In this document: piece by piece, positions 2 through 58,671 of the stretch
Position numbering within the stretch: position 1 is the stretch's first letter
Layout of the letters: each line of letters opens with the position of its first letter
Assembly (NCBI RefSeq): GCF_007741535.1
Contig: NZ_CP036525.1
Span: 5,022,001 to 5,086,000 of the forward strand
Direction of reading: 5' to 3'
From: Rubripirellula lacrimiformis
GTDB taxonomy: Bacteria > Planctomycetota > Planctomycetia > Pirellulales > Pirellulaceae
DNA length: 64,000 nt
Notes under the pieces: generated by a model
What the model saw: the letters and a program-made list of their open reading frames with translations, nothing else
Told to the model about the DNA's origin: nothing
Databases searched by the model: none
Program-made: the position numbers and the translations under genes

Positions 2-382
2 GTCTTTCGCAGCACCGAAGGTATCCCGGCCGACGACATTGCGGTCGGCTTGGTCGATCACCTTCGCAGTAGCCTGCGCCAAATCAGCGCCGAACCCGGG
101 CACTTGAAAGTCCTGGCCCGCGCCGGTGACGACATTGCGGTAGCCAATCTGATCGATAGCGATTCACCAACGGTGTTATCGCTATCGACCCAGACGACTT
201 CGCCAGAGGTGGCAGCCATCATCAACGCGCGCGTGCGGATGGCTCCCGAAGTGTTAAGCGAACATGTCCAAGCTGCCATCCAAGCGATGGCAAAGTCCTA
301 TCAAGCCACGACGGAAATCACGCAGATGGAAAGTTTTCGTCCTGGCCGTCCGGTGCCGACATACCGCAGCACGTCGTCCTAG
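2..382 (+). CDS. C-terminal part of a possible CobW/P47K-type GTPase (5' truncated by window)
   Basis: The reading frame is open from the first bases of the window, so the start lies upstream; about 126 residues are visible. The visible part reads as an amphipathic alpha/beta segment with short matches (HLKVLARAGDD, AVANLIDS, INARVRMAPEVL) that resemble the C-terminal part of planctomycete CobW/P47K G3E GTPases as I remember them. No nucleotide-binding motif is in the window, so the family call is tentative. The gene ends in TAG at 380-382, and its last bases form CTAG, which also supplies the stop codon of the convergent gene on the other strand; the two genes therefore share a palindromic end with no room for a terminator between them. 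Confidence 0.45.
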   Translation, partial: VFRSTEGIPADDIAVGLVDHLRSSLRQISAEPGHLKVLARAGDDIAVANLIDSDSPTVLSLSTQTTSPEVAAIINARVRMAPEVLSEHVQAAIQAMAKSYQATTEITQMESFRPGRPVPTYRSTSS

Positions 383-55376: not shown

Positions 55377-57956
55377 ATGCAATCCATTTCTTTTTTGCCC
55401 CGCCCCCGCGCTGCTTGGGCATGCCTGATGGCAGTCCTTTCGCTTCACTGCGTCGCCCTTGCAGACGATCCGAAGGGAACCTTTACCGACGGAACGTTCA
55501 AGGACAGCCAGCTGTTTCCAGGAACAGAGCGTCAGTACAGCGTTTACATTCCACCGCAGTACCGATCGGACCAGCCCGTGAAGTTGATGGTCTTCATGGA
55601 CGGAAAGAACTATCGCAAACAAGGTGGTTCATTTGACGTGCCCGCGGTCTTCGATCGGTTGATCGAAGAAAAAGCGATGCCCGTCACCGTTGCGGTATTC
55701 GTCAATCCCGGAACCGTCACCGCATCGATGCCGGGCACCAAGAACCGTAGCAATCGATCCTTTGAATACGATTCATTGGGAGACCGGTACGCGAAGTTTC
55801 TGACCACCGAATTCCTTCCCGTCGCGTTGGAAGGGGTCAACGTATCGACCGCCCCGGCTGACCGTGCGGTTTGTGGAATTTCGTCGGGCGGGATCGCCGC
55901 GTTCACCGTGGCCTGGCAGATGCCCGAACAGTTTGGCAAGGTGATCAGCCACATCGGTAGCTACACCAACATCCGTGGTGGATGGGCGTACCCGGGATTG
56001 GTCCGCAAAACCAAGAACGATCCCAAACCGATCAAGGTCTACCTGCAGGAAGGCAAAGACGACCTCAGCAATCTGCACGGTAACTGGCCGCTTGCCAATC
56101 AAGACCTCGCCGCGGCACTTCAATTCGCAGGCTATCCCTACAAATTGGTGATGACCGACGGTGGTCACAGCGGCAAGTACGCAGGCCAAGAATTCCCAAA
56201 TGCGTTGCGATGGCTGTGGGACGATTCCGCTGAATCGGACAATGTCCCGTCGCCTGCGACGAAGCCCAAATGGCAGCCGCATCCCGATGCGATCGCTCGC
56301 GATTCGGTGCCCACAGGCAAAGTCATCGAGATGCCCGAATTTGAATCCAAGGTATTTGCTGGCACCACCCGAAAATGGGCGGTCTATGTCCCAGATCAAT
56401 ACAAAGCTGACCAGCCAGCCGCGCTGATGATTTTTCAAGACGGCGAGCGAATGCGAGACACCAACGGCCGATGGCGAATTCCAACGGTCTTTGACAACCT
56501 GATTGCCGGTGGCGAGATGCCGCCCACAATCGCTGTGTTTATCGATCCCGGACACGAAATCGCCAAACCACGACGCGGCAACAAATCATCCAATCGCAGT
56601 TTTGAATACGATTCACTTGGCGATCGCTACAGCCGTTTTCTGTTGGACGAGATCATTCCAGAGGTCAGCCAGCAGTACAACCTTTCCAGTGATCCGAAGA
56701 TGCGAGCCATCGGCGGATCCAGCAGCGGAGCGATCTGCGCTTTCACCGCGGCATGGGAACATCCCGATCAGTTTGGCAAAGTATTTTCAAGCGTCGGCAG
56801 TTTCACCAACCTGCGTGGCGGTGATGTCTACGCGTCTCTGATTCGTAAAACCGAACCGAAACCCATCCGCGTCTACATGGCCGATACCAGCGGCGACGTC
56901 GACAATGCATTCGGCAGCTGGCCCTGGGCCAATCAACGAGTGGCCTCGTCGCTAAAGTACATGGGATACGATTCGCGGCTGGATTGGGCCGAAGGTTATG
57001 CACACAATGCCGACTACGGGAGCTCGCGATTTCCTGATGCGATGCGTTGGCTATGGCGAAACGAAGATCACAATCCGGTCATCGACACGTCCGATGATTT
57101 GGGAGGCGACCTGACACTGTTGAACCTATTGGTGCCTGGAAAGACATGGGAAGTGGTCGCCGAAAACATCGGGTTCGCCGACGCCCCCTGTACCGATGAT
57201 CAAGGCAACTTTTACTACTGCGACATGAAGGCACCAGCGGTTTACCGAGTCGACGCGGTCAGCGGAAAATCGTCCGTGATCGCCACGGAATCCGTCAGCG
57301 GATTGGAATTCGGTCCCGACGGTGTCCTTTACGCGTGCCAAGGATCCAAAGACCGAGTGATCTCGATCGATCCCAATAACGGTGATGTTGCAGTCGTCGC
57401 GTCGGGTGTCAAACCGAACGACATGGCCGTGACGGCTGATGGATGGATCCTGATCACGGAAACACGCGACCACAAAGTGACTCGCATCGATCCCAAGAAT
57501 GGTGACGTCGCCACAGCCGACCTCGGCATTCAACGTCCCAACGGCATCGCAATCTCCCCCGACGGCGGCACACTTGCAGTCTCGGACTACGGCGGCCCTT
57601 CCACCTGGACATTCCGAATTTCCGAAGGCGGCGAACTGGATGCCAAGATGCCAAGCATGCCAATGCGGCTGGCGATCGACCCAGAGGGTGAATTCAATTT
57701 CAACCAACCGCCACCGTACCAAACGGCTTCGCGCGGGGATGGCATGGCAGTCGACCACATCGGTCGCTACTACGTGACAAGCGAAGTTGGTGTCCAGGTG
57801 TTCGATCCAACAGGTCGACCCTGTGGCGTGCTGCCGAAACCGGATTCAAGCCAACCGCTGACCAGCTGTATCTTGGCCGGTCCCGACCATAGCTACCTTT
57901 ACGTCACCAACGGCACGACGATCTTCCGTCGTCCATTGACCGTGACCAAGCCGTAA
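55377..57956 (+). CDS. Double esterase (enterochelin-esterase-like) fused to SMP-30-type propeller
   Basis: 859 residues. A signal peptide (PRAAWACLMAVLSLHCVALA) is followed by two tandem esterase-D-type alpha/beta hydrolases. The first (about 40-285) has Ser169 in GISSG, the phrase ERQYSVYIPPQYRSDQPVKLMVFMDG and a late His in GGHSGKYAG; the second (about 320-570) has Ser449 in GSSSG, RKWAVYVPDQYKADQPAALMIFQDGE, and an equivalent His in GYAHNADYG. Residues ~590-850 are an SMP-30/gluconolactonase propeller (CTDDQGNFYYCDMKAPAVYRVD, GLEFGPDGVLYAC, RPNGIAISPDGGTLAVSD). All three parts suit breakdown of esterified carbohydrate, e.g. acetylated or ferulated polysaccharide. No binding module seen. 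Confidence 0.92.
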   Translation: MQSISFLPRPRAAWACLMAVLSLHCVALADDPKGTFTDGTFKDSQLFPGTERQYSVYIPPQYRSDQPVKLMVFMDGKNYRKQGGSFDVPAVFDRLIEEKAMPVTVAVFVNPGTVTASMPGTKNRSNRSFEYDSLGDRYAKFLTTEFLPVALEGVNVSTAPADRAVCGISSGGIAAFTVAWQMPEQFGKVISHIGSYTNIRGGWAYPGLVRKTKNDPKPIKVYLQEGKDDLSNLHGNWPLANQDLAAALQFAGYPYKLVMTDGGHSGKYAGQEFPNALRWLWDDSAESDNVPSPATKPKWQPHPDAIARDSVPTGKVIEMPEFESKVFAGTTRKWAVYVPDQYKADQPAALMIFQDGERMRDTNGRWRIPTVFDNLIAGGEMPPTIAVFIDPGHEIAKPRRGNKSSNRSFEYDSLGDRYSRFLLDEIIPEVSQQYNLSSDPKMRAIGGSSSGAICAFTAAWEHPDQFGKVFSSVGSFTNLRGGDVYASLIRKTEPKPIRVYMADTSGDVDNAFGSWPWANQRVASSLKYMGYDSRLDWAEGYAHNADYGSSRFPDAMRWLWRNEDHNPVIDTSDDLGGDLTLLNLLVPGKTWEVVAENIGFADAPCTDDQGNFYYCDMKAPAVYRVDAVSGKSSVIATESVSGLEFGPDGVLYACQGSKDRVISIDPNNGDVAVVASGVKPNDMAVTADGWILITETRDHKVTRIDPKNGDVATADLGIQRPNGIAISPDGGTLAVSDYGGPSTWTFRISEGGELDAKMPSMPMRLAIDPEGEFNFNQPPPYQTASRGDGMAVDHIGRYYVTSEVGVQVFDPTGRPCGVLPKPDSSQPLTSCILAGPDHSYLYVTNGTTIFRRPLTVTKP

Positions 57957-58058: not shown

Positions 58059-58379
58059 CTAGGCGGTTGCGGTTAACTTCAGCCCGATCACACCGACGAT
58101 GATCAGCAGCACAAAAAACACCCTGCTTGGACTAGCCGGTTCGTCCAGCATCAGGACTCCGAACAACACCGTCCCCACGATTCCGATCCCGACCCAAACG
58201 CCGTAGGCGGTCCCCACCGGCAGCGAACGCAGGGATACCCCCAGCAATCCAAAGCTGGCGATCATCGCGGTGATGGTCCACACCGTCGGCCACAGTTTCG
58301 AGAACCCGTCGGAATACTTCAGCCCGATGGCCCAGCCGACTTCGAACAGACCTGCGATAAAAAGAACAAACCAAGCCAT
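58059..58379 (-). CDS. gdx: Guanidinium exporter Gdx (SugE-type SMR protein)
   Basis: 106 residues with four transmembrane helices (MAWFVLFIAGLFEVGWAIGLKYSDG; WPTVWTITAMIASFGLLGVSLRSLP; GTAYGVWVGIGIVGTVLFGVLM; VFFVLLIIVGVIGLKLTA). Essential Glu13 is in GLFEVGWAIGLKYS, and GTAYGVWVGIG matches the Gdx subtype rather than the EmrE polyaromatic-cation exporters. Gdx exports guanidinium ion by proton exchange. Its mRNA leader carries a guanidine-II riboswitch, which confirms the subtype independently of sequence similarity. Ends 18 bases before the convergent esterase gene's hairpin. Confidence 0.95.
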   Translation of the reverse strand: MAWFVLFIAGLFEVGWAIGLKYSDGFSKLWPTVWTITAMIASFGLLGVSLRSLPVGTAYGVWVGIGIVGTVLFGVLMLDEPASPSRVFFVLLIIVGVIGLKLTATA

Positions 58380-58397
58380 GGCTTACCCCGTTGACTG

Positions 58398-58442
58398 CAG
58401 GGCCGTCCCTGATTGTGGTCGGAGCGGTGGGGTCGTCCCCAC
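58398..58442 (-). promoter_or_regulatory. Guanidine-II (mini-ykkC) riboswitch
   Basis: On the minus strand, just upstream of gdx, two hairpins lie in tandem: GTGGGG-ACGA-CCCCAC (58442-58427), then a 15-base linker, then CAGGG-ACGG-CCCTG (58411-58398). Both have the ACGR loop closed by G-C, the defining feature of guanidine-II. The second hairpin ends 18 bases before the start codon, and GGGG about 8-11 bases before the ATG is the probable ribosome site. Known role: guanidine binding by the two loops releases the ribosome site and turns on export genes. Family, gene context and both loops agree; not tested. Confidence 0.9.
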
Positions 58443-58671
58443 TTCCTAGAGAATGTTTGGGCTTCGGTCGCACCGAGATGCGAAGCACGATCCACGCATC
58501 CGTTGATGCATGGCGAGCCGCCGACACTTTGTCGGCATTTGAAGCCGGAACGTGCCAGCGATGGAATCCACAGGATGCGGTCATCACCGGCACAGTAGAA
58601 TCGTAGCCACGCAGGGCAACGTGTTCAAGGCGATAGCGTTAGCCCAAAACAGACAAGCGATTGAGCCCCCC

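Follow-up and report, generated by a model that had tools for sequence, protein, structure and literature searches.

A guanidine-II riboswitch in front of a Gdx-type gene of a planctomycete, and the exporters that accompany its class

Guanidine-II (mini-ykkC, RF01068) and Guanidine-III (ykkC-III, RF01763) are guanidine sensors, and the RNA fold of the second is unrelated to that of the first. Regarding Guanidine-II, passages in four sources describe a guanidine-induced folding of both hairpins that exposes the Shine-Dalgarno (SD) sequence (PMC9094411, PMC9300104, PMC5486947, PMC12186494), and in two of them the passages locate a putative anti-SD within the linker (PMC9094411, PMC9300104). Guanidine-III is presented in the abstract of PMC5696562 as an H-type pseudoknot. 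With respect to the exporter, a passage of PMC7695847 gives the numbering E13, W16, S42, Y59 and W62 for Gdx-Clo, and states that W16 is conserved in the Gdx subtype, the Qac subtype having Gly or Ala at this position.

The stretch analysed here, hereafter the window, comprises 64 kb of the 8.54-Mb genome of the planctomycete Rubripirellula lacrimiformis (G000). Rfam cmscan returned a minus-strand match to RF01068 that covers the model in full (positions 1-48 of 48) and scores 45.4 bits against a gathering score of 32 (E = 8.4e-6 for a search size of 64 kb x 4227 Rfam families), being the only match to this model found in the genome, and no other Rfam family reached its gathering score in the 64 kb. 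An earlier note on this DNA had described, from the letters alone, two tandem hairpins with ACGA and ACGG loops and stems of six and five base pairs upstream of gdx, as well as a GGGG ribosome site just past the second stem, and had proposed the covariance model as a check. All of these elements are where it had put them (Table 1), the ribosome site being part of CGGGGU, and the model recognizes them, which confirms, at the level of sequence, a real guanidine-II riboswitch with two hairpins before a Gdx-type gene.

Table 1. Features of the gdx leader in the window, and positions of the switch in the plasmid records that carry it before a PACE gene
Feature	Position	Strand	Basis or remark
Guanidine-II (mini-ykkC) riboswitch aptamer	58398..58444	-	full RF01068 match, 45.4 bits
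P1 hairpin, 6 bp, GUGGGG/CCCCAC	58437-58442 with 58427-58432	-	sequence; pair types vary among leaders
P1 loop ACGA	58433-58436	-	sequence
Putative lower extension of P1: GGA (58444-58446) with UCC (58421-58423), A/CGC internal loop between	58421..58446	-	
P1-P2 linker, 15 nt	58412-58426	-	sequence
Putative anti-SD GCUCCG, 5' end of the linker	58420..58425	-	6-bp complement (G-U counted) to CGGGGU
P2 hairpin, 5 bp, CAGGG/CCCUG	58407-58411 with 58398-58402	-	sequence; positions 4 and 5 vary
P2 loop ACGG	58403-58406	-	sequence
Shine-Dalgarno region CGGGGU	58385..58390	-	sequence
gdx ATG	58377-58379	-	18-nt spacer from P2, SD within
gdx (sugE-type), SMR-family guanidinium exporter by sequence, 106 aa	58059..58379	-	ORF, NCBIfam, Pfam, residues
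Plasmid PACE genes with a switch (L301, L302, L303, L306, L308, L309, L310, L313, L314, L315)	PACE start 301, switch about 225-282		

Might two such hairpins be an accident of a GC-rich genome? Individual GGACGRCC sites are frequent, with nine in the window against a mean of 9.2 in first-order Markov copies of it, and at least one match in the phylum close to the cut-off (L023, 32.1 bits), located in an open acidic reading frame, looks accidental. Nevertheless, the extended form GGGACGRCCC occurs in the window only at the P1 and P2 sites, two GGACGRCC sites 8-40 nt apart arose five times in 200 Markov copies of the whole window, the match lies 13 bits above the cut-off with the E value already given, and each of the 12 matches in the family of the window precedes an SMR gene. 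The comparative data thus make a chance origin very unlikely, to the point of being hardly conceivable. The stability of the predicted fold is not unusual in this one leader (z -0.26), and due to this the case for a riboswitch rests on the covariance model, the comparison of leaders and the position of the element rather than on energy.

The protein encoded behind the element scores 126.7 bits against NCBIfam NF008512 (SugE, cut-off 126) and 100 bits against PF00893 (SMR family). Among the other NCBIfam models listed, those for Qac, EmrE and Mdt stay far under their cut-offs. Its best match in the PDB is 6wk5 (together with 6wk8), which we take to be Gdx-Clo (E 4.2e-30, aligned 1-104), and the alignment to this chain places E13, W16, S42, Y59 and W62 in the window protein, identical in both. 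The assignment to the Gdx subtype, which the earlier note had based on the RNA, is independent of the riboswitch, since it follows from the SugE score and the Gdx-type residues, W16 among them. The subtype is in this way supported by sequence, and guanidinium export is the function that it predicts. Regarding the surroundings, gdx and an ORF with esterase and SGL domains (55377-57956, +) are convergent, and a Gfo/Idh/MocA-family ORF lies upstream on the strand of gdx, 387 bases apart; a promoter scan of the sigma-70 type found none between 57900 and 58800. The product of the convergent ORF, 859 aa long, combines an SGL-type propeller with two esterase stretches and has long relatives (64-71% identity) elsewhere in several genomes of the same genus. 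There is no match to Guanidine-I in the genome, nor to Guanidine-III in the window or in the rest of the genome, nor a urea carboxylase over its cut-off in the genome, and therefore guanidinium export is the evident use of the sensor. Taken together with the switch, this leads us to infer that guanidine export is regulated at the window gdx, as the earlier note had held.

The same architecture was looked for in other planctomycete gdx leaders, a survey that the earlier note had also suggested, and the two ACGR hairpins recur there with compensating changes. The alignment contains 21 gdx leaders of the phylum, 19 of them distinct, and the hairpin-finding script required GG plus ACGR and at least four pairs, which means that the loops and the pairing at positions 1-4 are given by construction. 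Beyond that, the pair types at P1 positions 3-6 change on both sides among the 19 distinct leaders, and positions 5 and 6 of P1, whose pairing was not required by the search, are paired in 17/19 and 18/19 leaders, versus 2/19 and 13/19 when the arms are slid by one base. Pair types vary at P2 positions 4 and 5 as well. The P1 loop is ACGA in all 19, and the P2 loop is ACGG in ten and ACGA in nine. Thus, as judged from the aligned sequences, the guanidine-II stems are backed by covariation in relatives. A possible 3-bp extension of P1 across the A/CGC loop is found in 11 of the 19 distinct leaders, in the variants GGA/UCC, GGA/UCU and AGA/UCU, all of them able to pair, and the same extension sequence precedes the gdx of the gammaproteobacterium Methylophaga. 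Apart from these leaders, and outside the counts, there is the case of one genome (G395; L170:378-480) with two GGGACGACCC hairpins upstream of gdx and about 58 nt between them. An additional hairpin is predicted within this intervening stretch (fold z -0.61), and the leader stays below the Rfam gathering score, with 19.5 bits over the downstream hairpin; it is possibly a linker-insertion variant, of which this is the single case. A long-linker pattern matched 9/241 genomes of the family of the window and was discarded, since reversed-pattern controls match too and the pattern is consequently meaningless without position.

Within that family, Guanidine-II was found in 12 of 241 genomes, always over the cut-off and, by coordinates, always directly upstream of an SMR match. 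SMR matches are present in 105 of the 241 genomes, 45 of them over the SugE cut-off; the SMR leaders read in the family were those of 30 SMR loci, 60 further regions and the riboswitch loci, weaker matches being left out. Outside it, an even sample of the phylum gave Guanidine-II in 27/392 genomes (22 over the cut-off), and another family of the same class, that of the genome G152, gave 16/170 (13 over the cut-off). Such a patchy trait, in a family where the exporter is much more frequent than the switch, is what a degenerate and nonfunctional remnant carried along with gdx would leave; against it, both loops and stems are intact in the window at a score of 45.4 bits and at 18 nt from the ATG, and diverged Gdx leaders retain the hairpins with compensating changes, which makes a remnant quite improbable.

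The earlier note had placed the element outside the Proteobacteria, the group to which it assigned most known examples. The host is indeed a planctomycete, but this location is not new, given the Gloeobacter structure in a passage of PMC5486947 and the RF01068 matches in the public records of Rhodopirellula baltica (L074) and R. rubra (L075), which have exact 600-base stretches in common with two of the 12 family genomes (G588 and G544, respectively). A search of open-access papers for guanidine-II or mini-ykkC in planctomycetes or Rhodopirellula found none, and the alignments of the 2007 discovery and of the 2017 binding work may include one; a passage in PMC2864571 names Planctomycetes, but for another motif. 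The class of the switch is already known, and the pattern that surrounds it has more interest than the single element. Guanidine-III is found in 30/241 genomes of this family, where an SMR match always follows it within about 85 nt (e.g., L158, L164, L161), and none of the 241 has both classes. In the genus of the window, Guanidine-II is found in R. lacrimiformis and Guanidine-III in G557 and G575, and G555 has a gdx whose leader gives no Rfam match. Separately, in the family f14 of the phylum (L002, L003, L006, L009, L011, L018, L019) Guanidine-II elements occur in pairs, one on each strand, with about 100-400 bases between them. Seven proteins near such elements in L011, L013 and L018 gave UAAP1/UAAP2 over the cut-off and, below the respective cut-offs, components of ABC transporters and a protein resembling creatininase, neighbours that are as expected for guanidine breakdown.

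The relationship between exporters and switches was followed on two Gdx trees. The first, of 112 rows, was built with 14 of the 80 genome-contig loci and with tblastn matches of at least 60 bits, duplicates and L211 having been removed, and its switch labels were assigned by a pattern script, eight rows being changed by hand after the Rfam results. On this tree the labels change 13 times, versus 49.9 when shuffled. Among its 88 labelled family rows, the switch class takes 9 changes (minimum 2, mean 34.9 with shuffled labels) and the genus takes 45 (minimum 32, mean 69.2 with shuffled labels), that is, both cluster, and the genera g1, g315 and g324 each hold Guanidine-II, Guanidine-III and no switch. 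In the second tree, of 73 rows after dropping 39 long branches and near copies by the author's choice, the Gdx proteins with Guanidine-III form a clade with support 100/99, together with Streptomyces, Myxococcus and Comamonas sequences and two rows with no switch, and rows with Guanidine-II and with no switch are intermixed outside it. The Guanidine-II label is scattered in both (9 changes in the 112-row tree, 7 in the 73-row tree). The window Gdx is located among those with Guanidine-II in the first, a quick tree, and weakly beside the Guanidine-III clade (54/88) in the second. A single clade for the eight rows of genus g324 was rejected (p-AU 6e-6). The trees constrained to unite the window with the same-genus Gdx of the Guanidine-III type (p-AU 0.068), to join the window to the Guanidine-III clade (0.485) or to gather all 19 Guanidine-II rows in one clade (0.0865) were not rejected.

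As for the genomic context, the three same-genus genomes with gdx (G557, G575, G555) gave no empty-site or synteny proof of a gdx insertion. Relatives of the flanking genes of the window were found on contigs other than that of gdx in G557 and G575, and hundreds of kilobases from gdx in G555. The observation that the earlier note had named as adverse, close relatives that keep the flanking sequence and lose the loops, was not made in these genomes, two of which have Guanidine-III and one a leader with no match, with the flanking genes elsewhere or not found. Because of the clustering of labels, the mixed genera and the flanking genes located elsewhere, exporter and switch are read as moving together: they seem to have been mostly inherited or moved as one, which is well supported for the Guanidine-III clade and for the mixed rows of g324, and less so, though likely, for the window gdx and its switch.

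How would the switch work? In the reading that we prefer, with a probability of about 0.93, the gdx leader is a complete guanidine-II riboswitch in which guanidinium would make the loops kiss, the SD would be freed and Gdx would export guanidinium, exporter and switch being probably inherited or transferred together. By analogy with other members of the class, it is most likely a translational ON switch, the ligand, the kissing and the ON direction being taken from published work on those members. As guanidinium rises, each ACGR loop would bind one ion and the two loops would kiss; the kissing complex would then keep GCUCCG, at the 5' end of the linker, away from the SD region, and, with the SD free, the ribosome would start and Gdx would export guanidinium. 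For the window leader itself we infer both which stretch is the anti-SD and that the transcript contains nothing further. The linker of the window begins with CGCUCCG, and the pairing of GCUCCG with CGGGGU amounts to 6 bp. In 11/19 distinct planctomycete leaders, the UCC/UCU of the anti-SD element can also pair with the GGA/AGA that precedes P1, and our own proposal is that the CUCC element may swap partners, being paired at the base of P1 in the ON state and with the SD in the OFF state.

The evidence for this anti-SD is uneven. In a broad comparison of 23 leaders (20 planctomycete and 3 gammaproteobacterial), the complementarity between the whole linker and the SD was no better than in the controls, which were at least as good in 249/300 permutations of partners, 274/300 shuffles of the linker and 95/300 shuffles of the downstream part. 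When both hairpins were forced, in a model that cannot represent kissing or ligand, the accessibility of the SD rose in only 14 of the 23 leaders, with medians of 0.45 and 0.46, and fell from 0.19 to 0.14 in that of the window. A narrow comparison, chosen post hoc after the failure of the broad one and reduced to the first eight bases of the linker in the 14 leaders where it opens with CGCUC or CUCUC, yielded on average -6.36 kcal/mol, versus -5.49 with swapped partners (10/1000 as good), -4.67 with shuffled partners (0/1000) and -3.17 with other linker 8-mers (0/1000). It is this post hoc comparison that points to the start of the linker as a putative anti-SD. The best fold predicted for the free window leader retains P1 but lacks P2, and in it the SD is buried by pairing with the first codons, so that the OFF state may be built differently: the leader would be a guanidine-II switch with an OFF hairpin specific to the window, in which the first codons GGCUUGGUUUGUUCU would take up the SD/AUG stretch GGGGUAAGCC and the coding region would pair with the 3' arm of P2, with no anti-SD in the linker. 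This hairpin, besides being the predicted free fold, was picked up by scanning (58363-58389, minus strand) as a stem of 11 pairs with a run of T's after it, inside the coding region; yet the count of terminator-like sites, one, equals the expectation from shuffles (mean 1.0), and only 3/11 of its pairs are G-C, so that we regard it as unlikely, albeit far from negligible.

Guanidine-II is also found before exporters of a different family. In the planctomycete G152 (L020:1050-1549), an element scoring 35.2 bits precedes a 143-aa PACE gene (PF05232, 165 bits), for which no relatives were found in the other 169 genomes searched of its family or in viral contigs. Together with it, 17 plasmid copies (16 alphaproteobacterial and one from Vibrio) make up a hand-picked set of 18 PACE genes, 11 of which have Guanidine-II hairpins before them, nine over the Rfam cut-off. 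The plasmid copies are mainly the best rows of 183 matching records (182 by another count), with Pantoea (50 records) absent, Sinorhizobium (55) present once, and near copies or shared genera in Nitratireductor (3), Microvirga (3) and Roseibium/Labrenzia (2); because the sample is hand-picked and contains near copies, the 10/17 plasmid PACE genes with two GGACGRCC hairpin cores within 100 nt before the start are no estimate of frequency. Eight of these ten leaders exceed the Rfam cut-off of 32, and L302 (31.4) and L315 (30.6) fall just short. Among the seven plasmid PACE genes with no switch, four have an annotated LysR gene just upstream on the opposite strand and the other three belong to records with almost no annotated genes; no LysR gene was found within 300 nt in the eight annotated loci of the ten that bear the switch. 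No paper tying PACE to a guanidine riboswitch was found in a literature search, and the link does not appear in the passages seen of PMC10149990 and PMC7266159; a role of PACE in guanidinium export was not found in the literature searched either. These leaders suggest that a subfamily of PACE exports guanidinium. In a broader reading, for which the chances seem to us evenly balanced, Guanidine-II would be a mobile cassette with an exporter whose family can be swapped (Gdx, or PACE in a planctomycete and in alphaproteobacterial plasmids), and the Gdx of one planctomycete family would be accompanied by either of two unrelated switches, Guanidine-III in a lineage of its own.

The window gene, whose NCBIfam name is that of a quaternary-ammonium pump, receives in this way a likely function, that of a guanidinium exporter controlled by guanidine, and the survey of its family offers a natural experiment, with Gdx under either of two unrelated guanidine sensors within one genus. 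Provided that the switch is a guide to the substrate, guanidinium would be exported by one subfamily of PACE (PF05232, "chlorhexidine efflux"), and through this link a physiological substrate could be tested directly for some members of a drug-efflux family. Compared with the structures 6wk5/6wk8 of Gdx-Clo, the window protein has the same residues at positions 13, 16, 42, 59 and 62 (E, W, S, Y and W). Compared with the described Guanidine-II elements, the one in the window has the same two ACGR hairpins beside the ribosome-binding site of an SMR exporter gene and a 15-nt linker within the range of 7-40 given in a passage of PMC7544219, but its host is a planctomycete, whereas the class is mostly proteobacterial (a passage in PMC12186494). 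It differs as well in the possible 3-bp extension of P1, found in 11/19 planctomycete leaders and common in its sequence to a gammaproteobacterium. Finally, Guanidine-III occupies the same place before gdx in 30/241 genomes of the family, two of the same genus among them, but it has an unrelated fold, gives no match in the genome of the window and accompanies a different and well supported Gdx clade.
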